Source of the DNA: Cochlodiniinecator piscidefendens
GTDB lineage: Bacteria; Pseudomonadota; Alphaproteobacteria; Rhodobacterales; Rhodobacteraceae
Direction: 5' to 3'
Assembly: GCF_011326755.1 (NCBI RefSeq)
Contig: NZ_JAAOIE010000004.1
Location: 62,001 to 126,000, forward strand
DNA: 64,000 nucleotides
Under the pieces are notes generated by a model. It saw nothing but the letters and a program-made list of their open reading frames with translations, was not told the origin of the DNA and ran no database searches. The position numbers and the translations under genes are program-made. Shown here piece after piece: positions 18,980 through 63,675 of this stretch (the first letter of the stretch is position 1; each line of letters begins with the position of its first letter).

Positions 18980-19887
18980 TTTGCCACCTCATCTGCAACC
19001 AACGCTTTATAGAGCGCGCGAATGCGTTCGGTCACCGGGCCCATTTTTCCCGCCCCGATAACACGGCCATCGATTTCCCCAACGGGGGTTTGCGCCCCAA
19101 ATGTCCCGGTCAAAAAGGCTTCGTCAGCGCCGTAAGTATCCACCAAAGAATAGTTACGCTCAAACACTGGGATACCATCTGCACGGCAAACGTCGATCAC
19201 CTTCTGACGTGTAATACCATTCATGCAGTAATCACCGGTCGAGGTCCAAACCGCACCTTTGCGCACGATGAAAAAGTTGCACGCATTTGTTGTGTTCACA
19301 AACCCATTGATATCCAGCATCAGCCCCTCATCTGCACCTGATTTTTCTGCGGCGATGCAGGCCAAAATGCAGTTCAGCTTGGAATGCGAATTTAACTTTG
19401 GGTCCTGGGTCATCGGCAATCCACGCAAATGTGGAACAGTGGCCAAATTGATCGGGCGGGGAATTTTGGGCGTCGAATGTTCCATGATGATCACCATGGT
19501 CGGGCCGGATTGTGACAATGACGGATGCTGAAACGGTTTTACCTTAACGCCGCGCGTGATCATCAGACGCGCGTGGCAATCTGAATGCATTTCATTCGCT
19601 GCGCGGGTTGCCTCAATCGCTGCTATGACACCTGCGCGGTCTAGACCGATATCCAGATCAATCGCCTTAGCGGCCTCAAACAAACGATCCATATGTTCAT
19701 CAAGAAACGCCCAAACACCGTCATATAGGCGCAAACCTTCCCAAACGCCATCGCCCAACATAAACCCGCTGTCATAAACGCTTACTGTTGCTTCTGATCG
19801 CGGCACAATTTTACCATTCACATAGATCAATATGCTTTCGTTTCTAACGTCTTCTTCAGCGGCGTGAGTGGTCACATGTTCGGTCAT
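18976..19887 (-). CDS. Class IV aminotransferase (branched-chain/D-amino-acid type)
   Basis: A fold-type IV PLP enzyme of 303 residues. The start at 19887 (MTEHVTTHAAEE) is preceded by CGGAGGATAAG; the longer frame to 19974 has no support. It shows YVNGKIVPRSEATVSVYDSG, FMLGDGVWEGLRLYDG, the PLP lysine region KLNSHSKLNC, and TTNACNFFIV with GITRQKVIDV downstream. Members of this class include IlvE, D-alanine aminotransferase and aminodeoxychorismate lyase; the sequence does not separate them. It overlaps the sulfotransferase-like gene by 4 bases. A second class IV enzyme is encoded at 55060. Confidence 0.88.
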   Translation of the reverse strand: MTEHVTTHAAEEDVRNESILIYVNGKIVPRSEATVSVYDSGFMLGDGVWEGLRLYDGVWAFLDEHMDRLFEAAKAIDLDIGLDRAGVIAAIEATRAANEMHSDCHARLMITRGVKVKPFQHPSLSQSGPTMVIIMEHSTPKIPRPINLATVPHLRGLPMTQDPKLNSHSKLNCILACIAAEKSGADEGLMLDINGFVNTTNACNFFIVRKGAVWTSTGDYCMNGITRQKVIDVCRADGIPVFERNYSLVDTYGADEAFLTGTFGAQTPVGEIDGRVIGAGKMGPVTERIRALYKALVADEVAK

Positions 19888-50660: not shown

Positions 50661-50694
50661 AGGCCCGACCGCGAAAACGGTTGGGCCTATTTTA
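50661..50694 (+). terminator. Intrinsic terminator after the DM13 gene
   Basis: AGGCCCGACCG pairs with CGGTTGGGCCT (one G-T wobble) around CGAAAA, followed by ATTTTATT. It ends the plus-strand DM13 transcript just at the tail of the convergent MFS gene. Confidence 0.85.
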
Positions 50695-51858
50695 TTGAGC
50701 TTCCGAGACCGATTTGATTTTGGTGACAAGTAAAATCAACGAAACAGCTGCGGCCAACGCCGCTAATATCAACGCTGCCTGATAATTGTTAAATTGATCA
50801 AAAAACACCCCTGCTGCCGATGGACCTAGTAATCCGGCAGCTGCCCAAGCTGTAAAAACGCGGCCATAGATAACGGTTCCTGTCATCGTACCAAAACGAT
50901 GCGATATATATGCCGGATATGCGGCGATGGTTCCCCCATAAGCAAAGCCGACGATCGCCAATCCGATTAACGTTGTGATCCAGTTGGATGAAAACGCCAT
51001 GAACAGTAGGGCTGCTGTTGATAATATCGAAAGACATAACAGAACGGATCGCCCGCCCCGTTTGTCGGTCAAAACACCACCAAGTAAACTGCCCACCATA
51101 TTTGCGAGTGCGATTATGATTGGGGCCGCAGTGATCCAGAGTGGGTTGCTTCCTCTGGCTTCGATTATGCCTGTCGCATGGCCAATTATCATCAGGCCAG
51201 CTGTTACTGCACCACAATAGCTGAACCAAAGCCATGTGATTTCCGGCCTTAGACCTTTTGTTGTGGTTGTTTCAACTTGCGCGTCTGCGACATAATGCAT
51301 GCGCGAGTGTTTTAGCGATATCGCGCTTAACGCGGAGATCAGTAATAGGCAGATTGCCAGAAACAAAAGCGCAGCCACCCATCCACCGAAATTCGCGGCA
51401 ATGCGCAACGGGATTGGAAACATCACCGCACCAAGCGCATAAATGGCGGTAATCAATCCCATTGCAAAACCTCGGTTTTCTGGAAGAATACGGCCTGAAA
51501 ACTGAAGCGCATATCCATAACCTAAACCATTGGCAGTGCCGAAAATCAAACCAAAGCCCAACCAAATGAAGACCATAGATGAACTAAAAGCAGCCAGTGC
51601 GCAGCCCGCAGCAGCTAACATCCCGACCATAGTTACATAAACAGCCGGAGTGAAACGTGCATATAGGGTATGCCCCATAAGAACTGCAGCAGCCAAAGAC
51701 GCGAGTGCGATGGAATAGGTAACACTCGCGGCACTGCGCGAAACGCCAAAATCTATTTCCATCGCCAAAAGCAATACCGAAAAGGCATGGAGCGATCCTA
51801 ATACAAAGGAAAGGAGCGCGGCCCCGGCCAGCGCTTGTTTTTGGTTTTTGGTCATCAT
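50692..51858 (-). CDS. MFS transporter (oxalate/formate antiporter-like group)
   Basis: A 388-residue transporter with 12 predicted membrane segments. The start at 51858 overlaps the enoyl-CoA hydratase stop as ATGATG. Features include SVTYSIALASLAAAVLMGH, GLGYGYALQFSGRILPENRG and GGVLTDKRGGRSVLLCLSI, with the central Gly-rich pattern of OFA/monocarboxylate carriers. It is the third gene of ligase-hydratase-MFS and could import the acid that the ligase activates. That is inference from position. Confidence 0.85.
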   Translation of the reverse strand: MMTKNQKQALAGAALLSFVLGSLHAFSVLLLAMEIDFGVSRSAASVTYSIALASLAAAVLMGHTLYARFTPAVYVTMVGMLAAAGCALAAFSSSMVFIWLGFGLIFGTANGLGYGYALQFSGRILPENRGFAMGLITAIYALGAVMFPIPLRIAANFGGWVAALLFLAICLLLISALSAISLKHSRMHYVADAQVETTTTKGLRPEITWLWFSYCGAVTAGLMIIGHATGIIEARGSNPLWITAAPIIIALANMVGSLLGGVLTDKRGGRSVLLCLSILSTAALLFMAFSSNWITTLIGLAIVGFAYGGTIAAYPAYISHRFGTMTGTVIYGRVFTAWAAAGLLGPSAAGVFFDQFNNYQAALILAALAAAVSLILLVTKIKSVSEAQ

Positions 51859-52610
51859 TTGCGTCGAGATTCTATAAAGTCCTTCAAGGCGGCTTGTGTC
51901 CCTTCTGAGCGGAAGCAATCGGAATCGTAGGCTTCTTCAAGGGTAAGGACAGAAGCAAAATCAGCATCTGCTGCCATATAGAATGACCGTTTGATGTTTC
52001 GTAGGCCGCGTTCGGGGAAGCTTGCGATGCGTTCGGCCAATGCGCGAGTGACGGTCTCTAGCTGATCATCTTCTACCACTCGGCTGACCAAACCAACACG
52101 TAATGATTCATCTGCATCCAGCATGTCTGTGCTCAGAGCCATGTCCATTGCAACGCTCAGGCCTACCATTTTTGTCAGAAGCCAGGTCAATCCACCAGTT
52201 GGACTAAATCCCATGTACGCATCTGGCAGGCCTAATTTGGCGGATTTTCCTGCGATGCGCATGTCACACATCAGCGCCACTTCTAAACCACCCCCAAGGG
52301 CAAAGCCATTGATTGCGCCGATGATAGGCTTGTCCAATGCCAATGCTTCGCGCGCTAACACTTGATAGAGGGATGCCGCTTTGCCGAATTCTTCTTCGGT
52401 CATTTTATCCATTGCTTTGATATCAGCACCCACACTGAAGGCGCGACCTGTGCCAGTTAGGGTGATCACCTTAATGTCTGGGTTTGCTTTGGCGTCGCGG
52501 AAAAGCTGAAGCAGTTCTTCTAGATCTGGAATATCAAAGGCGTTTAGGGCCTTGGGGCGATCAATTACCGCCCAGAGTACACCGTTGTTGATTTCACTCT
52601 GAATTGCCAT
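51855..52610 (-). CDS. Enoyl-CoA hydratase/isomerase family protein
   Basis: A crotonase-fold enzyme of 251 residues, started at 52610 (MAIQSEINNGVLWAVIDRPK) with AAGGACAA in front. The oxyanion-hole blocks GRAFSVGADIKAMDKM and NGFALGGGLEVALMCDMRIA are present, and the first catalytic Glu lies in GGLEVAL. At the second catalytic position the sequence reads LGLPDAYMGFSPTGG, Asp in place of the usual Glu. The enzyme may hydrate an unsaturated or aryl acyl-CoA made by the neighbouring ligase. The exact reaction is open. Confidence 0.88.
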   Translation of the reverse strand: MAIQSEINNGVLWAVIDRPKALNAFDIPDLEELLQLFRDAKANPDIKVITLTGTGRAFSVGADIKAMDKMTEEEFGKAASLYQVLAREALALDKPIIGAINGFALGGGLEVALMCDMRIAGKSAKLGLPDAYMGFSPTGGLTWLLTKMVGLSVAMDMALSTDMLDADESLRVGLVSRVVEDDQLETVTRALAERIASFPERGLRNIKRSFYMAADADFASVLTLEEAYDSDCFRSEGTQAALKDFIESRRK

Positions 52611-52623
52611 TGTGTTTTGTCCT

Positions 52624-53949
52624 TCAAGCTTCGTAATTGCGCAACACGCGCTTTGTTTTGTGTTCTGAGGCGATGGTCCCTTGCTGAACAAGTTCGACGC
52701 GAACGGCGAATGCAGCTCTGCGACTAACAAGTGCTTCGGTTTCGTTTATGAGCGCTTCATATTGTGAACGCGGGACATTGTTGGAAACTTCGACGATCAA
52801 GCGAGGAGCGTAGTCAAAAGGGGGCGGGGAATTCAGTGCGATCTGAAATTCACCGGTTAGGCGTGGCTCAAGATCGTGCAGGACATCCTGCACAGTTGTC
52901 GGGAAGATATTTACACCTTTTACCACAAACATATCATCGCTGCGTCCCTCTGTGAGGAACCGAAAACCTGTGCGTCCACAGGCGCAAGGGCTGGTTTTTA
53001 CCTGAACGTAATCGTGGCTGCGTAAGCGTAGCAAAGGGGAAGCTTGGCGCCTGATCGACGTATAAACCAGTTCACCTTTTTCTCCGTCACGCATAGGTTT
53101 TACTGCGCCCGTATCTGGGTCGATCAGTTCGGCAATTACGTAACCTTGTCCGCAGAAATGCATGCCGTCGTGATGTTCGCACTCGGCACTTTGGCACCCA
53201 AGCTCTGCAATGCCATACAGGTCGTGGGTGCTCATCCCCCAGGTTTTTTCTATCTTCTGACGATATCCTGGCACCTGCAGCCCTGCTTCACCAGAAAAGA
53301 AGCCCTTTTTGATGTTCAAACTTAAAGGATCAATTCCTGCTTCAGCTGCAACTTCGGCAAGTCTAACCGCGTAGGACGGCGTGGAATAAAGACATTTATC
53401 GCCCGGAATGTCAGCAAACATATCCAACAGAGCACGCGATTTTCCTACGCCATAAGCCATGACCGTTGCGCCAAGATGTTCAAAGGACATGTGATCCATC
53501 ACACCGCCGGCGTAGATCGAATAATTAAAACAGTTCAATACCAGATCACCGGGACGGCACCCCAAAATCCATAACGCGCGCGTACCCATTTCGTTGTAAG
53601 CATGGATGTCATTACGCGTCCAACCGATGCGCATTGGTTTACCTGATGTTCCGCCCGTCCCAACCATTCGCACGATATCAGACGATGGCGCACATTGATG
53701 CGGTCCTATTAGCGCGCCTTCACGTTGTGTCTGAGCGAGATCTTTTTTCTCAGTGAAAGGGACCTGTTCCAGGGCCTCATGACATGTAACATCGCTGGGC
53801 TTTAGGCCAGCATTATCAAATTGAGCCCGGTAATACTCTGAATGTGTATATAGATATTCTATCTGCTGGGTGAGAAGCGGCGCTTCGTACCGGCGCAATT
53901 CATCTGCTGATAGTGTTTCGAGTTCGGTATTCCAGAAATTGCCATCCAT
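52624..53949 (-). CDS. Phenylacetate-CoA ligase-like (PaaK family) AMP-forming ligase
   Basis: A 441-residue adenylate-forming ligase. The phosphate loop is MVGTGGTSGKPMRIGWTR, with DLYGIAELGCQSAEC and RQASPLLRLRSHDYVQV (adenylate Asp) following, and the C-terminal SDDMFVVKGVNIFPTTVQD. Cys/His residues cluster around ECEHH, HFCGQG and SPCACGRTG. It should activate an aryl- or related carboxylic acid as its CoA thioester. It begins a unit with a hydratase and an MFS carrier and is divergent from a LysR gene. No phenylacetyl-CoA epoxidase (paaABCDE) is present, so the classical phenylacetate pathway is not what this region shows. Confidence 0.85.
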   Translation of the reverse strand: MDGNFWNTELETLSADELRRYEAPLLTQQIEYLYTHSEYYRAQFDNAGLKPSDVTCHEALEQVPFTEKKDLAQTQREGALIGPHQCAPSSDIVRMVGTGGTSGKPMRIGWTRNDIHAYNEMGTRALWILGCRPGDLVLNCFNYSIYAGGVMDHMSFEHLGATVMAYGVGKSRALLDMFADIPGDKCLYSTPSYAVRLAEVAAEAGIDPLSLNIKKGFFSGEAGLQVPGYRQKIEKTWGMSTHDLYGIAELGCQSAECEHHDGMHFCGQGYVIAELIDPDTGAVKPMRDGEKGELVYTSIRRQASPLLRLRSHDYVQVKTSPCACGRTGFRFLTEGRSDDMFVVKGVNIFPTTVQDVLHDLEPRLTGEFQIALNSPPPFDYAPRLIVEVSNNVPRSQYEALINETEALVSRRAAFAVRVELVQQGTIASEHKTKRVLRNYEA

Positions 53950-54030: not shown

Positions 54031-54957
54031 ATGGCATACGCTGAAATTATGGAAAATTTAAATCGCGCACTTCCGCCGTTGCGGTCATTGCTTGCTTTTG
54101 AGGCGTCGGTCAGGCTCGGCAGTTTTACTGCTGCTGCGCGTGAGCTGAATGTTAGCCAACCGGCCATCAGCCGTCAGGTGAAGTCTTTGGAAGATGCGCT
54201 TGGTGCGACGCTTTTTGCGCGGGAACATCGGAGCGTCATACTGACTGATGCCGGTGAATTATATTACAAAGCAGTGATTTCAGGACTTCTTGAAATTGTT
54301 GAGGCGGGCAGGGCAATTGACCGAAGTGCTCCACCAAACCGTGTAACGATATACGCCAATTATGGTTTGGCGACATATTGGTTGATGCCCCGGTTGACGT
54401 TATATCAAGATGCTAATCCCGATGTTGAAATTGTGGTGCGCACGGTAGAGCAAGAACAGCGTCTTTCAAACACCGACCCTGAAATTGCCATACGATTTGG
54501 CGACGGAAATTGGGACGATGGGGAGGTTGGGCTGCTTTTCAATGAATGTGGTTTCCCTGTGTGCAGCCCCGGTTTTGCAGAAAATAGTGATCCAATACAT
54601 TCCATTGATGATTTGCCGAAGCGTAGGTTGCTTAAGGTGCAATCTGAAAATCAACCTTGGCTAGACTGGAATGGGTTTTTCCAAGCGCATGGTAAGAAGT
54701 TTGAAGAATTGCGCGGAGCCACATTCAACAATTATACGCTCGCTATTCAGGCTGCGCTGGCTGGTCGAGGTATCGCTATTGGGTGGGATCAGATCGTAGA
54801 TGATTACCTGAGACGCGGCTGGCTCATTCGTCCTGTCTCAGAGGAGGTTATTACCAATCTGGGCTATTATACAGTAGCCAATTATCGGCAATCATGGCGG
54901 GCAACACTAGATGATATATTGGCTTGGCTGACTGCAGAGGCGTCGCCGGATACTTAG
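54031..54957 (+). CDS. LysR-type transcriptional regulator (GcvA-like)
   Basis: A 308-residue regulator: an N-terminal winged helix with ALPPLRSLLAFEASVRLGSF and the recognition part LNVSQPAISRQVKSLEDALG, followed by an effector domain about residues 100-300. A shorter start at 54049 (MENLNRALPP) is equally possible. It is divergent from the ligase operon (81-base gap) and is followed by the aminotransferase/amidohydrolase pair, so it could control either or both. An inverted repeat begins at its last codons (54950). Confidence 0.9.
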   Translation: MAYAEIMENLNRALPPLRSLLAFEASVRLGSFTAAARELNVSQPAISRQVKSLEDALGATLFAREHRSVILTDAGELYYKAVISGLLEIVEAGRAIDRSAPPNRVTIYANYGLATYWLMPRLTLYQDANPDVEIVVRTVEQEQRLSNTDPEIAIRFGDGNWDDGEVGLLFNECGFPVCSPGFAENSDPIHSIDDLPKRRLLKVQSENQPWLDWNGFFQAHGKKFEELRGATFNNYTLAIQAALAGRGIAIGWDQIVDDYLRRGWLIRPVSEEVITNLGYYTVANYRQSWRATLDDILAWLTAEASPDT

Positions 54958-55059: not shown

Positions 55060-55995
55060 GTGTCTAGCCGGATTGCCTATGTGAACGGGGCGTTTATCCC
55101 TGAGTCCGAAGCATCCATTTCTATAAGAGATCTGGGTTTTGTCTATGGTGACAGCGTTTTCGACACATGGAGAACCTTTGGCGGTAAGCTCTTTAAGCTC
55201 GAAGAGCATATGGATCGGCTCATCGAAAGTCTTACCTACGCAAAAATTGTGATCGGTATGTCACGGGCTGAAATGATCGACGCAACCGTTGATCTTGTGG
55301 CGCGCAATTTACCGATGCTACGCTCAAATGAGGATTACTGGGTCACATTTCGGGTGACAGGCGGATTGCAGAATTTCGACGGGGAACCCGCTAGGAATCT
55401 AGGGCCGACGGTTATCATTGATTGTATTCCAATACCGTTGCGCGCTAGAGCGCCATTTTTTAAGCACGGAATCGATGCACGATTAACGGATCGATGTCGC
55501 ATAGCCCCCGGAGCCATAAGCCCGAACGCTAAGACGAACAACTATCTCAATATGATATTAGCGCAGAAGGAAATATCCGCGGATTTCCCCGGCGCATGGG
55601 CGCTGATGCCTGATCACAAGGGAAACATTGCTGAGGGTGCTGGCTGCAATTTCTTCGTAGTGCGGAACGGCGCTGTGTTCACCCCAACGACTGAATGCGT
55701 TTTGGCAGGCGTCAGTCGACAGGTGGCGATTGATCTGTGTGATGGGTTGAATATTCCTATACATGAACAAGATCTGTCATTCGATGAGGCATTTGATGCG
55801 CAAGAGGCATTTTTTACCTCGACCAGCTTATGTGTGTGCCCTGTTGCAACGTTAAACGGAAAACCTTACCCCAGTGGCGCGCCGGGGCCAGTCACAAAGC
55901 AGATTATGGATGGTTTTGCAAAACTGGTGGGAATGGATTACGTCGATCAATATCTGAGCTTTTTGTCTGATGGACCTGCGAGCACCGGGTTATGA
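55060..55995 (+). CDS. Class IV aminotransferase
   Basis: A 311-residue PLP enzyme. It starts at a GTG at 55060, with GGGAGGG in front; the ATG two bases upstream is in another frame. It shows YVNGAFIPESEASISIRDLG, FVYGDSVFDTWRTFGG, the PLP lysine in SPNAKTNNYLNMIL, EGAGCNFFVVRNG and GVSRQVAIDLC. It is a paralogue of the enzyme at 18976 but clearly different. It overlaps the DMFase-like gene by 4 bases, so the two should act together: for example, the amidohydrolase frees an amino compound and this enzyme transaminates it. The substrate is unknown. Confidence 0.87.
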   Translation: MSSRIAYVNGAFIPESEASISIRDLGFVYGDSVFDTWRTFGGKLFKLEEHMDRLIESLTYAKIVIGMSRAEMIDATVDLVARNLPMLRSNEDYWVTFRVTGGLQNFDGEPARNLGPTVIIDCIPIPLRARAPFFKHGIDARLTDRCRIAPGAISPNAKTNNYLNMILAQKEISADFPGAWALMPDHKGNIAEGAGCNFFVVRNGAVFTPTTECVLAGVSRQVAIDLCDGLNIPIHEQDLSFDEAFDAQEAFFTSTSLCVCPVATLNGKPYPSGAPGPVTKQIMDGFAKLVGMDYVDQYLSFLSDGPASTGL

Positions 55996-57611
55996 CGTTC
56001 ACCACAAAACGCCTTTTACAGAACCCGAACTTTGTTTCTCGGGGGGATGTTGCTGCGCCGGTTCATTTACGGCAGTGGTATGAAACGCCGCGTGGCGATG
56101 GAACACCCGAAGCATGGTGCTACACTGACCAGCTGTCTTATGGCGCGGGTGATATCATTCGCATTCACGCAACCAGCACCGCAGAAGATGTTCAATTTGA
56201 ACTTTGGAGTGATGGTTTGGCCTGTCGCCTTTTATGGTCTGGTGTCGCTCATTCTCGATGGGTTGAAACGCCGGAAAATGCATCTGTCGTCGGTTGCGGA
56301 TGGCCTGAAGTTTTGCAGGTTCCGGTGAATCCTGATTGGCCTTCTTGTGTGTGTCGATTGGTAATGACAGCGAGCGATGGGGCGTCAACTGAACATCTGG
56401 TCCTGATCCGCGCTGATCGAAATCAAACGCGTCGTGCTGTTTTATTGGTCGCTGACGGAACTTGGAACGCATATAATGATTGGGGCGGCTCCAACCACTA
56501 CGAAGGTGTTATAGAATCCAATAGTAATAGGTTTTCGCCAGAACTGAGCGTGCAACGACCCTACGCGTGCGGAATGGTTTCTTTGCCGGATGAAGCCCCG
56601 AGAACATTGCCGACACGACCTCCAAGTGATGATGTTCCTCTTTACCCACATATGGAATGGGCCTGGAAACACGGATATTCAAAGAAATACGCCTCTGCAG
56701 GTTGGGCGATGTATGGACGCCCCTTTGTGCACTGGGCGGAACAACACAGGTATGCGTTAGAATTTTTGAGTCAACGTGATCTGCATCGCGACCCATCGTT
56801 GTTAGAGGGTGTACCATGTGTCATCTGCGTTGGGCATGATGAATACTGGAGTAGACCTATGAGACAGGCCATTGATGAATATGTCGATGGCGGAGGCCAT
56901 GTCGCTAGGTTTGCAGGAAATTTCATGTGGCAAATTCGGTTGAGTGAAACAGGAGATCGTCAAATTTGCCACAAATACAAAGCCCGCGCCGAAGACCCAT
57001 ATTATGGGACTGATCAAATTCATCTGACGACCAACTCGTGGGAAGCGCCGGAAATCAAATACCCGGGGCGGGCAACCTTTGGGCTTGATGCGACATCGGG
57101 GCTTTACGCGGGATTTGGGGGGCTGGCCCCTCGGGGCGCAGGAGGCTTTACCATTTATCGAGAAGATCATTGGGCCTTTGTTGGTGCGCAGCTTGGATAT
57201 GGGGATATCTTGGGCGGACAGTCAAAGATTTTCGGGTATGAGGTCGATGGTCTACAATACCGCATCGAAGACGGCCTTCCGTATCCGGTACCAACGGATT
57301 ATTTACCGGAGGGTCTGGAAATTCTCGGGCTTGGCCTTGCGCGGCTGCGCGAAGATGCTTTGAGCGAAGGTGATACGCTGTTTGTTGGAGATGAGGACGC
57401 AAAGTTTATTGCAGAGATGTTCTATGAAAAAACAGATGAAGCTACGTTGGCGCGGGTAAATCGTGGATCAGGAATGATTGTCTGTTTCTCTCGGGGTGCC
57501 GGCGAAGTTTTTCATGCTGGTACAACTGAATGGGTTGCAGGGCTCGTACGTCGGGATGTCGCAGTTGAACAAGTAACCCGAAATGTACTGGATCGCTTTC
57601 TAGACCGATAA
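55992..57611 (+). CDS. N,N-dimethylformamidase large-subunit-like protein
   Basis: A 539-residue protein. It shows the DMFase beta-type C-terminal domain: LLVADGTWNAYNDWGGSNHY (about 151-170) and VICVGHDEYWSRPMRQAIDE with H282 and E284. In characterised DMFase an H-x-E motif and Tyr residues form a mononuclear iron site, so the metal site looks plausible here. The protein is shorter than the 760-residue DMFase large subunit, and no small subunit gene is next to it. It is likely a C-N hydrolase for an N-substituted amide, but DMF itself is not implied. It overlaps the aminotransferase gene by 4 bases. Confidence 0.8.
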   Translation: MTFTTKRLLQNPNFVSRGDVAAPVHLRQWYETPRGDGTPEAWCYTDQLSYGAGDIIRIHATSTAEDVQFELWSDGLACRLLWSGVAHSRWVETPENASVVGCGWPEVLQVPVNPDWPSCVCRLVMTASDGASTEHLVLIRADRNQTRRAVLLVADGTWNAYNDWGGSNHYEGVIESNSNRFSPELSVQRPYACGMVSLPDEAPRTLPTRPPSDDVPLYPHMEWAWKHGYSKKYASAGWAMYGRPFVHWAEQHRYALEFLSQRDLHRDPSLLEGVPCVICVGHDEYWSRPMRQAIDEYVDGGGHVARFAGNFMWQIRLSETGDRQICHKYKARAEDPYYGTDQIHLTTNSWEAPEIKYPGRATFGLDATSGLYAGFGGLAPRGAGGFTIYREDHWAFVGAQLGYGDILGGQSKIFGYEVDGLQYRIEDGLPYPVPTDYLPEGLEILGLGLARLREDALSEGDTLFVGDEDAKFIAEMFYEKTDEATLARVNRGSGMIVCFSRGAGEVFHAGTTEWVAGLVRRDVAVEQVTRNVLDRFLDR

Positions 57612-57717: not shown

Positions 57718-59352
57718 TCAGATAGAAGCTGACTTTCGCGCCTCTAGCGTGTTGTTAAGCCAATCCGGGTCCATCTCGGGCACAGAAGACAGCAATAAAT
57801 CCGTATATGGAGCATGAGGCGGTGTGAATATTTCGTCTTTGCTGCCTTGCTCAACAATCTTGCCCATCTGCATGACAACCACATCGTCTGCGATGGCGCG
57901 CACAGTCGAAATATCGTGAGTGATGAACATGTAGGCGAGATTGTATTCGTTTTGCAGTTTATCGAGCAATTTCAGGATTTCCTCAGCGACCAGCTGATCC
58001 AACGCTGAAGTGACTTCGTCACAAATGATAAACTTGGGATTTGCCGCCAATGCGCGCGCAATGCCGATCCGCTGTTTTTGCCCGCCTGATAATTCTGACG
58101 GCAATCGATCCATGTAAATGTCGGGTTCCAGCTCAATCGCTGATAACAACGCCCTGACTTCTTCGGTGAGCGCATGCCCACGTAAACCGCGATAAAATTG
58201 CATGGGTCTGCCGATGATGTCGCGAATGCGTTGTTTTGGGTTCAGTGCGGTATCAGCCATTTGATAAATCATCTGCGAGGCGCGCAACTGATCTTTTGTT
58301 CTATTCGCGTATTTGTCGGGTAATGGTGCGCCGTCCAATATGATTTCACCGCTGATAGGTGGCAACAACCCTGTAATTGTACGGGCCACTGTTGATTTCC
58401 CAGATCCACTTTCGCCGACAACAGCGACAGTACGCCCAGCATGAAAATCGATTGAAATATCTTCAAGCACAGGTCGTGGCATGCCCGGGTATTGCGCCGT
58501 GATGTTGCGCAATGACAATACGGGTTCAGTTCCCTTTTTTACGGCGGGTTTTGCGGGGGCCGTGAATGAACGAACGGCCCATAGGCTTTTGGTGTAGTCT
58601 TCTTGCGGATCGGATAGCATTGTACGCGTAGGGGCCTCTTCGACCAACTCGCCATGGCGCAAGACCATGATTTGGTCCGCCATTTGCGCCACAACAGCCA
58701 AATCATGCGTGATATAAATGGCTGATGTTCCAAATTCGTCAACAATGTCCCGTATAGCGCTGAGAACTTCGATCTGAGTCGTTACATCAAGCGCTGTTGT
58801 TGGTTCATCAAAGATGATCAGATCTGGCCGACACGCCATTGCCATGGCCGTCATTGCGCGTTGCAACTGACCGCCTGACACCTGATGCGGATATCGAAAC
58901 CCGATGGTCTCCGGGTCGGGAAGGCGCAATTTACGGTATAATGTTATGGCGTCTTCTTCTGCTTCTGAGCGGCTGCTTACTTGTTTAAGAACCGGAAACT
59001 CAGTGTGTTGGCTCATCAATTTGTAAGCGGGGTTAAAGCTTGCTGCGGCGGATTGCGCGACATAGGCAATACGTGTTGAACGCAAATTGCGCCGTGTTGC
59101 ACGATCAGCGCCCAACAGTTCGATCCCATCGAAATGCACCGTGCCGCCCGAAAACCGGCACCCATCTCGGGCAAAACCCATCGCCGCAAGTCCAAGTGTT
59201 GATTTACCTGCGCCGCTTTCTCCGATGAGGCCAAGAACCTGACCGCGACCTAAGTTCAAATTGAGACCCTTAACAATCGGGTTCCATTCGTCTTGTGCGC
59301 GTCCTTCGATCACCAGATCGCGGATTTGCAGAAGTGGGGTTGTATCTGTCAT
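57718..59352 (-). CDS. Peptide-type ABC importer ATPase, two domains fused (DppD-DppF-like)
   Basis: A 544-residue fusion of two nucleotide-binding domains. The first has Walker A GESGAGKSTLGLAAMG, signature VSGGQLQRAM, Walker B LIIFDEPTTALD; the second has GESGSGKSTVARTITG, LSGGQKQRIGIARA and FIICDEVTSALD. Both ATP sites look complete. It powers the two permeases encoded upstream. Single-chain fusions like this occur in many alphaproteobacterial dipeptide/opine/nickel-type importers. It is the last gene of the operon that begins at 63675. Confidence 0.95.
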   Translation of the reverse strand: MTDTTPLLQIRDLVIEGRAQDEWNPIVKGLNLNLGRGQVLGLIGESGAGKSTLGLAAMGFARDGCRFSGGTVHFDGIELLGADRATRRNLRSTRIAYVAQSAAASFNPAYKLMSQHTEFPVLKQVSSRSEAEEDAITLYRKLRLPDPETIGFRYPHQVSGGQLQRAMTAMAMACRPDLIIFDEPTTALDVTTQIEVLSAIRDIVDEFGTSAIYITHDLAVVAQMADQIMVLRHGELVEEAPTRTMLSDPQEDYTKSLWAVRSFTAPAKPAVKKGTEPVLSLRNITAQYPGMPRPVLEDISIDFHAGRTVAVVGESGSGKSTVARTITGLLPPISGEIILDGAPLPDKYANRTKDQLRASQMIYQMADTALNPKQRIRDIIGRPMQFYRGLRGHALTEEVRALLSAIELEPDIYMDRLPSELSGGQKQRIGIARALAANPKFIICDEVTSALDQLVAEEILKLLDKLQNEYNLAYMFITHDISTVRAIADDVVVMQMGKIVEQGSKDEIFTPPHAPYTDLLLSSVPEMDPDWLNNTLEARKSASI

Positions 59353-59364
59353 GGTTGGTTCCCC

Positions 59365-60192
59365 TTAGTCCTTCAGTCCGCTGGCTTTGTGAAGCATCCA
59401 GTCGACAATAAAATTCACGGCAACAGTCAATAAGCCGATAGCAGAAGCCGGGATAAGTGGCGTTAAATCCCCGAATGTAATCAGTGACGCATTTTCGCGT
59501 ACCATTGACCCCCAATCAGCTGCGGGTGGTTGAATGCCAAGACCCAGAAAGCTAAGGCCAGAAATTGTAAGAAACACAAAGCAAAACCGAAGGCCAAATT
59601 CAGCAACCAATGGCGGGGCAGCATTTGGCAGGATTTCCCGGCTCATGACCCACCACAGACCTTCGCCACGAATACGGGCGGCTTCGACATAATCCATAAC
59701 GACGATGCCCATGGCCACGGCTCGGGCAATCCGAAAGACAAAGGTCGAGTAAATCAGCGCAATTACGCCAATAAGGCTGTAAACGGATGTACCAAGAATA
59801 GTCAGAAGTAGGAGCGCAAAGATCAATGTTGGAATGGAAATAACCACATCCACTGCGCGTGAAATTACCTGATCTACCCAACCCTGAAGTGTTGCGGATA
59901 AAAAGGCTGCAACACATCCTATGAAAAAGGCCAAAAGGGTGGTGATCAATGCAATCCCGATTGTATTGCGAGCGCCATAGATCATGCGCGTTGCCATGTC
60001 ACGGCCGAGTGAATCTGTCCCAAGCCAATATTCGGAAGACCAAGGTTCAAACTCATAAGCGACGATTTCGCTTTCGCCATATGGGGCCAGGATAGGCGCA
60101 AAAACGGCGACGATGATATATAGGGTGATCACCAACATACCAAACAGCGCAGTTGGCGGGATTTTTCGGATTTCATGTAAAGCTGCGTGCAT
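59365..60192 (-). CDS. Peptide-type ABC importer permease (DppC-like)
   Basis: A 275-residue membrane protein with six predicted segments and the family blocks YWLGTDSLGRDMATRMIYGA and the coupling-helix region YVEAARIRGEGLWWVMSREI ending LPNAAPPLV. Other marks are the GLSFLGLGIQPPAADWGSM motif and a short cytoplasmic N-terminus, both DppC-like. It is encoded between its partner permease (4-base gap) and the ATPase (12-base gap). Confidence 0.94.
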   Translation of the reverse strand: MHAALHEIRKIPPTALFGMLVITLYIIVAVFAPILAPYGESEIVAYEFEPWSSEYWLGTDSLGRDMATRMIYGARNTIGIALITTLLAFFIGCVAAFLSATLQGWVDQVISRAVDVVISIPTLIFALLLLTILGTSVYSLIGVIALIYSTFVFRIARAVAMGIVVMDYVEAARIRGEGLWWVMSREILPNAAPPLVAEFGLRFCFVFLTISGLSFLGLGIQPPAADWGSMVRENASLITFGDLTPLIPASAIGLLTVAVNFIVDWMLHKASGLKD

Positions 60193-60196
60193 GGTC

Positions 60197-61153
60197 TTAC
60201 TTCCGGTGCATCAGGCGAGGGTTTGACGCGATCGAAATCAGGTCAGACGCAAGATTAAAGAGAATATATGTGGCGGAAAAGATCAGGCAGGCGGCCTGCA
60301 CGACGGTGAAATCCCGCTTTGAAACGCTATCGACCAAAAGCTGCCCAAGCCCAGGGTAAACAAATACCACTTCGACAATCACAACACCCACGATCAGATA
60401 CGCAAGATTGATTGCGATCACGGTCACAATGGGGGCGATGGCATTAGGTAGGGCATGGCGGACAATGGTTCTGGCTGGGCTCGCGCCTTTAAGGCGGGCC
60501 ATTTCAATATATGGTAAAGCCAATAGATTTATCAGTGACGCCCGTGTCATACGCATCATATGCGCGGTGACAATCAAGGTAAGTGTCAGCGCTGGTAAGA
60601 ATGTTCTATGCAGGCGTTCGCCTAGGCCAGCATCATGCGATAGGTTGGTTATTGATGGAAACCATGCCAGTTCGACCGAGAAGATAAACACCAGAATATA
60701 GGCCACGAAAAATTCAGGTACCGAAATCGCTGTCAAAGAGACAATATTGATTGCTCTGTCGAGGGGGGTGCCGCGATAAAGGGCGGTGATCACACCAAGG
60801 CATACCGCAAGTGGCACCGAGATCAGAGCAGCAAATCCAGCAAGAAAGAATGTGTTATACAGGCGTTCTGACAATAGTTCTGTAATAGAAGCACCTGAGA
60901 TCAGAGAAGTGCCCAGATCACCCTGCAGAATTGCGCCTAGCCAATTTAGGTATCTGGTGTGCATTGGCAGATCCAGACCGAGCTTTTGTCGGAATGCTGC
61001 CAGCGTTTCAGGGGTTGCTGATTGGCCAAGGACCTGTTGTGCGACGTCCCCAGGCAGCAATTCAATTGAGATGAATATCACCAGAGAAACGACAAAGAGC
61101 GTCAGCAAGCCGAGAGCAAGGCGCTGGATTACGAGTTTGATAAGGGGGTGCAT
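60197..61153 (-). CDS. Peptide-type ABC importer permease (DppB-like)
   Basis: Started at 61153 (MHPLIKLVIQRLALGLLTLF), giving 318 residues; the frame upstream to 61234 overlaps the SBP end and is not needed. It shows the DppB N-terminus, SLVIFISIELLPGDVAQQVL, QKLGLDLPMHTRYLNWLG, and the EMARLKGASPARTIVRHALP coupling loop. Six membrane segments are likely. Together with the DppC-like protein it forms the channel. Confidence 0.94.
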   Translation of the reverse strand: MHPLIKLVIQRLALGLLTLFVVSLVIFISIELLPGDVAQQVLGQSATPETLAAFRQKLGLDLPMHTRYLNWLGAILQGDLGTSLISGASITELLSERLYNTFFLAGFAALISVPLAVCLGVITALYRGTPLDRAINIVSLTAISVPEFFVAYILVFIFSVELAWFPSITNLSHDAGLGERLHRTFLPALTLTLIVTAHMMRMTRASLINLLALPYIEMARLKGASPARTIVRHALPNAIAPIVTVIAINLAYLIVGVVIVEVVFVYPGLGQLLVDSVSKRDFTVVQAACLIFSATYILFNLASDLISIASNPRLMHRK

Positions 61154-61221
61154 TAGGTTCCCAGACCTGAAAGCGAAAGGCAGTCCGGTGGCGACTGATC
61201 GCCACCGGGATGATTGGTAAA

Positions 61222-62775
61222 TTAGACGGCCCACCAGCGTTCGATGGCTTTGTACCCATCAAGCGACCAGTTCGATGCAACGTTCTCGCTGTGGGCAACA
61301 CCTGTACGGCGCGCATAAACAAAGTTGCGGAAGAACGGGATCACGGACCCACCTTCATCGCGCAAGATCACTTGCATATCGCTATACATTTGCCCGCGCT
61401 TCGCTTCGTCCAATTCAGATCTTGCTGCGATCATGAGTTGTTGGAATTGATCATGGTTGAATTGGGATTCATTCCAATCTGCATTCTGAGCGTATGCTGT
61501 TGCGAAGATCATATCCGGAACTGGGCGTGCACCCCATGACCCGGTGAAGAAGGGTTTCTTCATCCAGACATCAGACCAATACCCATCACCCGGTTCACGG
61601 GCAACTTGAACATCAATACCCGCAGGCGCCGCATGTTCGCGGTACAGCGTGACAGCATCAACAGCACCTGCAAACAGGGAATCTGATACGCTCAAGCTTA
61701 CGCTCAGGTTATCCAAGCCCGCTTGGGTAAGGTGATATTTGGCTCTGTCAGGGTCATAAGCCCGCTGTTCGATGCTTGGATCAAAATAGGGCATGGTTGG
61801 CGCAATCGGGTGGTCGTTTGCAACGGTACCATGGCCGCGCAAGACGCGATCAACCAATGCTTCGCGATCGACACCGTATTTCAACGCAAGGCGTACGTCC
61901 CGATTGTTGAACGGTTCAACACCTGATTGCATTGCGAATGTTGGATGGAAGCCGCCTGAGATAGATTCAATTGCGATGTTTTCATCACGGCCCAATTGCG
62001 ACAATGTACGATATTCTGCAGATTGAACTGCATCAATTTCGCCGGTCACAAGTGCAGTTGTTGCAGCGGCTGAATCTGAGATAAGAAGCACTTCGACGGT
62101 ATCAAAGTGAGCAGCATTTTCTTTCCAGTAATCCGGGTTACGCTGCAGTACAGTTTTGATACCTGGATTCCAGTCTGCCAAAGTATACCCACCGGTCCCA
62201 ACACCAGACATATCAAGTAGACCATCTGCGCCGACTGGCATAATTTGGAAATGGTAGTCTGACAGGATGAATGGGAAATCGGCATTTGGTGCATCGAGTG
62301 TGATGCGTACTGCGCTGTCACCTTCAGCTGAGATGTCTGTTACACCAGCAAGCAATGACTTGGCGCCAGATGTACTATCTTCGCCACGGTGGAGATTCAG
62401 CGAGGCAATAACATCTTCAGGAGACAGGGATTTTCCGTTGTGGAATGTTACGCCTTGGCGAAGTTGAAAAATCCACGTGGCCGCATCGTCAGATGACCAG
62501 CTCGTCGCCAGTTCTGGGTGTAATGCATTGTCAGAGCCAATTTCCGTCAGATTGTTGCGCAGAGCCCAACCAACCATAATTTGCTGAGAGCCATTGGCCT
62601 CTGCGGGGTTTAGGGTGTCGGTGGTGCCGCCTTGGTTTACAGACAGACGGAAAGTACCGCCTTTTTGCGCCTGCGCTCGAAGTGGTAGTGGCATATGTGC
62701 CAAACCCACTGCCGCTGCAGAGCCCGCCAAAAAGCCCCGACGGCCGATTGATCCGTTTAGAAGTTTCAGTGTCAT
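61222..62775 (-). CDS. Peptide-type ABC importer solute-binding protein (SBP family 5)
   Basis: A 517-residue periplasmic binding protein. The N-terminus GSIGRRGFLAGSAAAVGLAH is a twin-arginine signal, so it is exported folded. Mature features include DTLNPAEANGSQQIMVGWAL, ATWIFQLRQGVTFHNGKSLS (family-5 signature) and RDVRLALKYGVDREALVDRV. The ligand could be a peptide, opine or amine; family 5 is too broad to tell. It lies 33 bases downstream of the 2OG-oxygenase gene. Confidence 0.94.
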   Translation of the reverse strand: MTLKLLNGSIGRRGFLAGSAAAVGLAHMPLPLRAQAQKGGTFRLSVNQGGTTDTLNPAEANGSQQIMVGWALRNNLTEIGSDNALHPELATSWSSDDAATWIFQLRQGVTFHNGKSLSPEDVIASLNLHRGEDSTSGAKSLLAGVTDISAEGDSAVRITLDAPNADFPFILSDYHFQIMPVGADGLLDMSGVGTGGYTLADWNPGIKTVLQRNPDYWKENAAHFDTVEVLLISDSAAATTALVTGEIDAVQSAEYRTLSQLGRDENIAIESISGGFHPTFAMQSGVEPFNNRDVRLALKYGVDREALVDRVLRGHGTVANDHPIAPTMPYFDPSIEQRAYDPDRAKYHLTQAGLDNLSVSLSVSDSLFAGAVDAVTLYREHAAPAGIDVQVAREPGDGYWSDVWMKKPFFTGSWGARPVPDMIFATAYAQNADWNESQFNHDQFQQLMIAARSELDEAKRGQMYSDMQVILRDEGGSVIPFFRNFVYARRTGVAHSENVASNWSLDGYKAIERWWAV

Positions 62776-62808: not shown

Positions 62809-63675
62809 TTAGGCCGTTCGTTTGTCGCGCGCATAGTGTTCTGGTGCTGCTTCGCCCCAAATGCGAATAGCTTTGTCAGATGTTGTGATGTCGTGCGGAT
62901 CGGATACGTAGCTAAGCAACAGGCTTTGTCGCTCTTTGCCTTTCGGGGCAGTTACGCGGTGCAGAGTGTAGCCACCTTTGAATAGCTGCAAGTCACCGGG
63001 CCGTAGGACCAGCGAACGCAGATCGTCGCGTTTACCGTCAAGCACTGCACGTACCTGATCATAATTCTCATCGTCGACGCTTCGTAGGTTGGGAACATAT
63101 TCGAATTCGCCACCCTGTGCAGATTGCTTTAGCCCAAGCGAAACCGTGAATTCGTTGTTATCAAAGTGCCATGCAAATTCGCAGCCATCTGGTTGAACAT
63201 TCACGTTCACGCTGCCGTATGGGTCGCGGTAGGTATAGAGATGTTCATAGCCCAATGCATGAGCGACAAACCGACAAAGATCCTGATTTTGAAAAATGGC
63301 CCAGATGACTCCGTCGCGCGGAAACAAATCTGCACGTACCATACCGTGGCGCCGGGGGGAGAAACGTTTAAGCGGGTGATCTTCTGGCGTTTCTGCCGGT
63401 GCTTCGGAAAAATACGGGTTCAGGTTGGCTGAATGAAATACAGCCTGATCGCTTAGGCCCGTGGCCTCTTCTTGCATCTTTGCGACGATTTCTGGCCGGA
63501 TGAAATCATCAAGCTTTGCGCAGTTTACGCCATCTAATCCGTGGCGTGCCAGCTTTAGCAAATCTTGAAAGCCTTTGCTCTCTGGCTGATCAATCGGGTA
63601 TTGTGTCGTATCAAAAAGCTGATGCGTCGTATATTGCAATTCAGATGGTGGTGTTTGCGTAGTTTGAAGCGTCAC
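62809..63675 (-). CDS. BesD/HalD-like Fe(II)/2-oxoglutarate-dependent oxygenase
   Basis: A 288-residue double-stranded beta-helix enzyme. The iron triad is readable: H170-F-D172 in EFAWHFDNNEFTVSLGL and H239 in GGYTLHRVTAP, with R249 placed to bind 2-oxoglutarate. Because position 172 is Asp, the halide site of BesD-type halogenases (Gly there) is absent, so hydroxylation is expected. This group acts on free amino acids in the known cases. It starts at GTG 63675 after GGGAGGATAG, the best ribosome site in the operon. It leads the operon, ahead of the binding protein and importer, which suggests that its substrate is the imported compound. Confidence 0.8.
   Translation of the reverse strand: MTLQTTQTPPSELQYTTHQLFDTTQYPIDQPESKGFQDLLKLARHGLDGVNCAKLDDFIRPEIVAKMQEEATGLSDQAVFHSANLNPYFSEAPAETPEDHPLKRFSPRRHGMVRADLFPRDGVIWAIFQNQDLCRFVAHALGYEHLYTYRDPYGSVNVNVQPDGCEFAWHFDNNEFTVSLGLKQSAQGGEFEYVPNLRSVDDENYDQVRAVLDGKRDDLRSLVLRPGDLQLFKGGYTLHRVTAPKGKERQSLLLSYVSDPHDITTSDKAIRIWGEAAPEHYARDKRTA

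Follow-up and report, generated by a model that had tools for sequence, protein, structure and literature searches.

The N,N-dimethylformamidase (DMFase) of Paracoccus (6lvb; PMC7686228) cuts very stable amides at an iron site of two tyrosines and one glutamate (2-Tyr-1-Glu), which its discoverers call unique. Their report describes an Ig-like domain I, a pentraxin domain II and a catalytic domain III, gives Y399, Y440 and E521 as the iron ligands, names H519 and N547 as essential in a figure legend, and lists the Y440A, E521A and H519A variants as inactive, as is the large subunit alone. The acetamiprid amidase AceAB, a DMFase relative that keeps the two-subunit architecture and acts on a different amide, has no activity on N,N-dimethylformamide (DMF) according to a passage of a review (PMC11573777), so that family membership does not predict DMF as the substrate. 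A further relative is N-acetyl-(R)-beta-phenylalanine acylase (8huy, 8i59, 8i5a), whose PDB title indicates an N-acyl amino acid as its substrate. Only these three kinds of substrate were met for the family, namely DMF with its close analogues, acetamiprid and N-acetyl-(R)-beta-phenylalanine. A transaminase working together with an amide hydrolase is also known from the glutamine transaminase and omega-amidase, which follow the same two-gene logic, omega-amidase being a nitrilase-fold cysteine enzyme. Here we describe an overlapping gene pair from a stretch of 64,000 nucleotides of Cochlodiniinecator piscidefendens (Rhodobacteraceae; contig NZ_JAAOIE010000004.1, positions 62,001 to 126,000), hereafter the window, in which the gene of a class IV aminotransferase (AT4; 55060-55995, +) runs into that of a short DMFase-like hydrolase (55992-57611, +). 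The pair is part of a wider tie between such hydrolases and transaminases, which goes beyond the original finding and is a stronger result than the class IV pair itself.

A compact DMFase-like hydrolase in an overlapping gene pair

Both genes lie where a preliminary description of the sequence had placed them, and the four-base overlap that it reported was read as ATGA, the stop of AT4 and the start of the hydrolase gene. The GTG start of AT4 is preceded by GGGAGGG, and the ATGA overlap suggests that the two genes may be translationally coupled. Gaps of 103 and 107 bp flank the pair, and the remaining open reading frames (ORFs) of at least 60 aa between its neighbours are all antisense or nested; in agreement with the preliminary description, no small-subunit gene was found beside the hydrolase gene, a statement about this locus, as no genome-wide search was made.

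The assignment of AT4 to class IV was upheld by its match to PF01063 (Aminotran_4; E 2.5e-40, 139.1 bits against a cut-off of 28.5). It also matched 18 NCBIfam models, including those of BCAT, D-amino-acid transaminase and aminodeoxychorismate lyase, none of which reached its cut-off (best score 189.4 bits against 363), and its closest solved chain was 5cm0 (E 1.6e-52). Lys158 is identical in all six aligned proteins and aligns with a lysine of 5cm0; we take it to be the lysine that forms the Schiff base with pyridoxal 5'-phosphate (PLP). At a threshold of 1e-60, AT4 was matched in four of 394 Rhodobacteraceae genomes, its own included. The window contains a second class IV aminotransferase match at 19072-19749 (-).

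The product of the second gene matched PF20254 (DMFA2_C; E 7.8e-57, 193.8 bits against a cut-off of 27, profile positions 9-369 of 374) and was the only such match in its genome. The family was absent from all 14 well-known control genomes and present in 55 of 289 sampled genomes of the class, where ORFs of about 520-610 aa and about 700-800 aa were both common; within the Rhodobacteraceae the window hydrolase was matched at 1e-20 in 32 of 394 genomes, its own included. Among viral contigs, two loci matched at 33% over residues 244-336. A search of the PDB with the single hydrolase sequence returned no relative, whereas profiles did find relatives.

The H282-x-E284 motif and the conserved tyrosines noticed in the preliminary description map to the active site of the solved DMFase. 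When a profile of 19 short relatives was aligned to the DMFase chain, H282, E284 and N310 were paired with H519, E521 and N547, and Y161 with Y399; for the second tyrosine, 16 long relatives were made into a profile that located the family motif on the DMFase chain, where the Y440A entry reveals the position of Y440. When 45 sequences (19 short, 10 intermediate, 16 long) were aligned jointly with MAFFT, Y170 fell in the column of Y440, and Y161, Y170, H282, E284 and N310 were identical in all 45 rows, so that both tyrosine ligands are retained; the same five residues were invariant across the 81 rows of a closer alignment. The loop of about 30 residues between the two tyrosine ligands of DMFase is missing in the window protein. 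Y218 and Y233, which are not identical throughout the 45 rows, were considered as the second iron ligand and rejected, given that neither is conserved in the long forms of the joint alignment, while Y170 is.

The window protein is also shorter than DMFase, as had been described (539 aa against PDB chains of 775). Because the short profile matched the DMFase chain at residues 6-30 (not significantly) and then only from 336 onward, the missing length corresponds to the pentraxin domain II (residues 74-337), whereas counterparts of the Ig-like domain I and the catalytic domain III are predicted to be kept, their limits (Table 1) being derived from predicted models. DMFase proper combines a pentraxin-bearing large subunit of about 760 aa with an adjacent small-subunit gene, and neither was found at the locus. 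The compact branch hints at small amide hydrolases that could perhaps work without a second subunit. AceAB differs from the window protein in its two-subunit DMFase architecture.

An AlphaFold2 model of the hydrolase built from 81 sequences (mean predicted local distance difference test score, pLDDT, 82.7; predicted template modelling score 0.89) resembled the N-acetyl-(R)-beta-phenylalanine acylase and DMFase about equally. VIA-align gave Z scores of 30.3, 30.0 and 29.8 for the acylase entries 8i59, 8i5a and 8huy and of 29.7, 29.5 and 29.3 for three DMFase entries (6lvb at 29.3), the next row standing at 15.1; with an earlier model, built from 19 sequences, these six entries scored 26.8-26.2. 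The top acylase match covered 407 residues with a root-mean-square deviation of 2.8 and about 20% identity over the aligned part, and the match to DMFase covered 415 residues within chain positions 2-756, with about 17% identity. The five site residues are present in the acylase as well, both in an alignment of 8huy with the long-relative profile (E 4.5e-262) and in the long relatives of the acylase; unlike the window protein, its chains (772-776 aa) align over their full length with the long DMFase-like form.

Transaminase genes beside DMFase-like hydrolase genes

Neighbourhoods were compared in two sets of loci. The 80 named loci are the top-ranking among 295 that six short peptide patterns, all taken from one query, had picked up; Mesorhizobium is heavily represented, and ten of the 80 have less than 1.5 kb on one side; another 20 loci were fetched from the 31 matching Rhodobacteraceae genomes besides the window's own, leaving out five full-length and six partial matches. 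Neighbour classes were assigned by tblastn with one representative each, and four for the aminotransferases, an approach to which distant members, and a truncated one at L004, are lost. Most classes had a single member examined with Pfam, the others being assigned by similarity. Gene calls in unannotated loci came from codon-usage scripts, which miss real genes (in one run the window's AT4 was lost and its hydrolase cut).

An aminotransferase gene lay within 400 bp of the hydrolase gene at 52 of the 80 named loci, and at 49 when the count is confined to the 70 loci with 1.5 kb on either side. The 52 comprised 50 downstream class III genes of group AT3a, one downstream AT3c gene and one upstream AT4 gene, the AT3 groups being similarity groups around three representatives, all PF00202. 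Among the 20 Rhodobacteraceae loci there were three cases, two with a GSA-like class III gene upstream and one with a divergent AT3a gene. Class III and IV genes number about 16 in the 3.7 Mb of the window's genome (one class III match being in two pieces), from which the chance of such a gene standing beside a given gene is estimated at about 1%; recurrence in several groups of the hydrolase tree is therefore unlikely to have arisen by chance. On this tree, which has 53 rows and stars on 28 of its 50 inner branches, separate groups were formed by the AT4 pair, the rhizobial set described below, the GSA-like pair and locus L122, although the program flagged the placement of the GSA-like loci as a possible long-branch effect. 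Other tree groups carried a CoA-transferase gene (five loci), an S9 peptidase gene or an isochorismatase-type gene.

With regard to the class IV gene itself, AT4 was found beside the hydrolase at only one of the named loci, L002 of Pseudophaeobacter sp. EL27, where it directly precedes the hydrolase gene. The two proteins are 79% and 81% identical to those of the window, and the genes overlap by four bases with a GTG start or by one base with an ATG start, while the flanks differ and include an AraC-type regulator, GBBH-like dioxygenases (one of two scanned), a Rieske oxygenase and an amino-acid-type ATP-binding cassette (ABC) transporter. AT4 was absent from all 20 fetched Rhodobacteraceae loci, and no plasmid record was common to both proteins among the matches listed (40 of 164 and 15 of 275 records). 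The exact class IV pair is rare. The co-occurrence suggested earlier therefore stands in so far as gene order in relatives is not random, mostly through class III genes, and falls for the class IV gene, which is not conserved. Since the transaminase differs by clade, being class IV here and of class III subtypes elsewhere, what is conserved would be the reaction pair and not a particular enzyme, and the link is best read as one between a DMFase-like hydrolase and a transaminase that varies from clade to clade.

A recurrent set of genes was observed in rhizobia (L005, L017, L030, L174 and many more loci), consisting of a short DMFase-like hydrolase, a class III aminotransferase, a beta-keto acid cleavage enzyme (BKACE), a GNAT protein and a histone-deacetylase-type protein, with an M20 deacylase in L005; some loci add a LysR gene that runs divergently and an amino-acid ABC transporter. 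In 65 named loci the sequence reaches 4.5 kb or more downstream of the hydrolase gene, and in the same orientation over that side AT3a was present in 50 of them, GNAT in 50, the histone-deacetylase-type gene in 48 and BKACE in 41. An annotated cluster of this type is located on plasmid p3 of Pararhizobium qamdonense. The BKACE of L005, from an unclassified alphaproteobacterial metagenome-assembled genome and the one tested, matched NF053538, the 3,5-dioxohexanoate-cleaving enzyme (521.8 bits against a cut-off of 430). Five Rhodobacteraceae loci had a BKACE gene within 6 kb in other positions, either upstream, further off or on the opposite strand. Keyword searching found no description of this gene set in the literature, "undescribed" being limited here to the words and the collection used.

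Such recurrent neighbourhoods of hydrolase and transaminase genes point to undescribed routes for the breakdown of amide-bearing nitrogen compounds, and a compact branch whose gene order links it with transaminases and with the cleavage of beta-keto acids offers a handle on natural substrates, the clusters predicting both feeds and products. The beta-lysine route proceeds through an acetyltransferase, a transaminase, beta-keto-acid cleavage and a deacetylase, steps that the rhizobial set would fit; identification of the cluster as a beta-lysine pathway was considered and is left as an idea.

Two further arrangements were observed. In five Rhodobacteraceae genomes (L112, L113, L115, L116 and L117, one of these loci being on plasmid pDSHI01 of Dinoroseobacter shibae), the gene directly upstream of the DMFase-like gene encodes about 800-830 aa that include stretches of CoA-transferase family III (Pfam applied to L117 only). 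In L118, L119 and L120 an S9 prolyl-oligopeptidase-like gene (Pfam run for L120 only) overlaps the DMFase-like gene in the script calls, behind genes of a dipeptide-type transporter.

Order of the reactions and alternative explanations

We tentatively propose, with slightly less than even confidence, that the pair forms a small catabolic unit in which a single-chain Fe(III) amide hydrolase with a 2-Tyr-1-Glu site frees an amine that is then transaminated by AT4. The iron would hold the amide carbonyl, a water molecule activated near His282 would attack it, and the C-N bond would be cut; the substrate would most likely be a small molecule resembling an amino acid, in the form of its N-acyl (acetyl or formyl) or N-alkyl amide, and the freed amine would give its amino group to the PLP enzyme AT4, leaving an oxo acid for further breakdown. 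Hydrolysis followed by transamination, the reverse of the order in the glutamine transaminase and omega-amidase couple, is plausible and is favoured by the BKACE-bearing sets, since transamination of a freed beta-amino acid would yield a beta-keto acid, the substrate of BKACE. Extended to the whole branch, the short single-chain DMFase-like proteins would be entry enzymes of undescribed routes for nitrogen compounds, the hydrolase freeing a (beta- or omega-) amino acid, a clade-specific transaminase converting it to an oxo acid, and BKACE cleaving the latter with acetyl-CoA in rhizobia and in some Rhodobacteraceae, with the window as the class IV version; we regard this broader scheme as somewhat unlikely. 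The preliminary description is confirmed in its observation and partly supported in its interpretation, its mechanistic idea being half supported.

A number of observations weigh against the proposal. No aminotransferase gene was found within 400 bp of the hydrolase gene at 28 of the 80 named and 17 of the 20 Rhodobacteraceae loci, several hydrolase loci carry a CoA-transferase, S9 peptidase or isochorismatase-type gene instead, and the fraction of 52 in 80 is inflated by close Mesorhizobium relatives, so that the 50 AT3a cases represent few independent events. At the 19 Rhodobacteraceae loci with enough sequence, the 4.5 kb downstream of the hydrolase gene held no AT3a, BKACE, GNAT or deacetylase gene in the same orientation, and no BKACE, GNAT or deacetylase gene was found among the nine window genes scanned. 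The class IV pairing was seen in just two cases, the third member of its clade (L003, 57% identity) had no aminotransferase detected beside the hydrolase, and the relatives of AT4 (42-52% identity) have quite different neighbours: L168 adjoins MttB, L169 is divergent from branched-chain-type ABC genes, L170 lies beside CoA-ligase and crotonase-like genes and L171 precedes an ABC ATPase, several of the names in L169 and L170 having been given by reading. As to the active site, hhalign did not pair Y170 with Y440, so that this assignment rests on the joint MAFFT alignment; the Tyr170 segment is of low confidence in the model (pLDDT below 50 for residues 167-169 and 171-173); and conserved site residues do not prove bound iron. 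Finally, DMFase itself disfavours substitution at the carbonyl carbon (PMC7686228).

The main rival reverses the order of the steps: AT4 would make a 2-oxo amide from an amino acid with a side-chain amide, such as an N-alkyl glutamine, and the hydrolase would then release an alkylamine. This agrees with the gene order, AT4 preceding and overlapping the hydrolase gene, with the likeness of AT4 to the models of BCAT and D-amino-acid transaminase, which are alpha-amino-acid enzymes, and with the preference of DMFase for N-alkyl formamides given in Table 1 of PMC7686228. Also in its favour, MttB adjoins one AT4 relative, and MttB together with dimethylglycine-dehydrogenase-like genes adjoins a relative of the transporter operon next to the pair. 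However, transamination first leaves unexplained the sets of class III and BKACE genes, in which the transaminase gene follows the hydrolase gene, it meets the same disfavoured substitution at the carbonyl carbon, and step order can hardly be predicted from gene order; we consider it unlikely.

It is quite improbable that the pair is accidental, that is, that genes of separate pathways were joined once and then inherited or transferred together in two related genera. The two class IV cases and the varied neighbours of the AT4 relatives would fit such an origin, but the overlap is kept in both cases while the flanks differ, and class III aminotransferases recur beside the hydrolase in other tree groups. 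Least probable is the opening of a cyclic amide (a lactam or cyclic imide) by the hydrolase to give an amino acid for deamination by AT4, since, although ring opening would leave amine and acid in one transaminase-ready molecule and an Aminobacter plasmid relative lies in one gene run with hydantoinase/oxoprolinase genes, four transporter genes apart, no lactamase-type gene was present among the nine window genes scanned and we know of no ring-opening member of the DMFase-like family.

Surroundings of the pair

The features of the locus are collected in Table 1. The oxo acid might be passed on to the products of the minus-strand genes for an MFS transporter, an enoyl-CoA hydratase and a PaaK-like CoA ligase, and the convergent ABC transporter is a possible uptake system.

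Table 1. Genes and predicted site residues at the AT4/DMFase-like locus, in window coordinates
Feature	Position	Strand	Remarks
Major facilitator superfamily (MFS) transporter, enoyl-CoA hydratase and PaaK-like CoA ligase genes	50692-53949	-	Divergent from the LysR gene
LysR-type regulator	54031..54957	+	About 100 bp before AT4 and about 80 bp from the divergent CoA-ligase gene; possible local regulatory role
Class IV aminotransferase AT4, 311 aa, GTG start	55060..55995	+	PF01063
Lys158 codon of AT4	55531..55533	+	Predicted PLP Schiff-base lysine; coordinate computed from the GTG start
ATGA, AT4 stop and DMFase-like start	55992..55995	+	Four-base overlap read in the sequence
Predicted DMFase-like amide hydrolase, 539 aa	55992..57611	+	PF20254; Ig-like about 36-145, catalytic DMFase domain III-like about 146-539, no pentraxin domain
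Tyr161 codon, counterpart of DMFase Fe ligand Y399	56472..56474	+	By alignment
Tyr170 codon, counterpart of DMFase Fe ligand Y440	56499..56501	+	By joint alignment; not so aligned by hhalign
His282-Asp283-Glu284 codons, counterparts of catalytic H519 and Fe ligand E521	56835..56843	+	By alignment
Asn310 codon, counterpart of DMFase N547	56919..56921	+	By alignment
Oligopeptide/dipeptide-type ABC transporter (ATPase, two permeases, family 5 binding protein)	57718..62775	-	Convergent neighbour; permeases named by reading and similarity
HalD-like 2-oxoglutarate enzyme, HxD motif	62809..63675	-	Upstream gene of the transporter run

The HalD-like protein (PF23169, E 8.2e-12) has an HFD motif where halogenases have a glycine. 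An HxD motif distinguishes the hydroxylases from the halogenases, which carry glycine, so that this protein is perhaps an amino acid hydroxylase rather than a halogenase; the window's genome has two more HalD-like relatives (37% and 30% identity). The same gene run was found in another genome, G193 (locus L187, 2814-15393), with identities of 77-81% for the transporter genes and 70% for the HalD-like gene. The transporter and HalD-like gene were considered as a fixed module with the pair and rejected, since the 36 kb read in G193 contained no match to AT4 or to the hydrolase, and G193 is not listed among the Rhodobacteraceae genomes matching the hydrolase (1e-20) or AT4 (1e-60). The run in L187 adjoins MttB and a pair of dimethylglycine-dehydrogenase-like genes, of which one was scanned, neighbours that suggest uptake and demethylation of an N-methylated compound.

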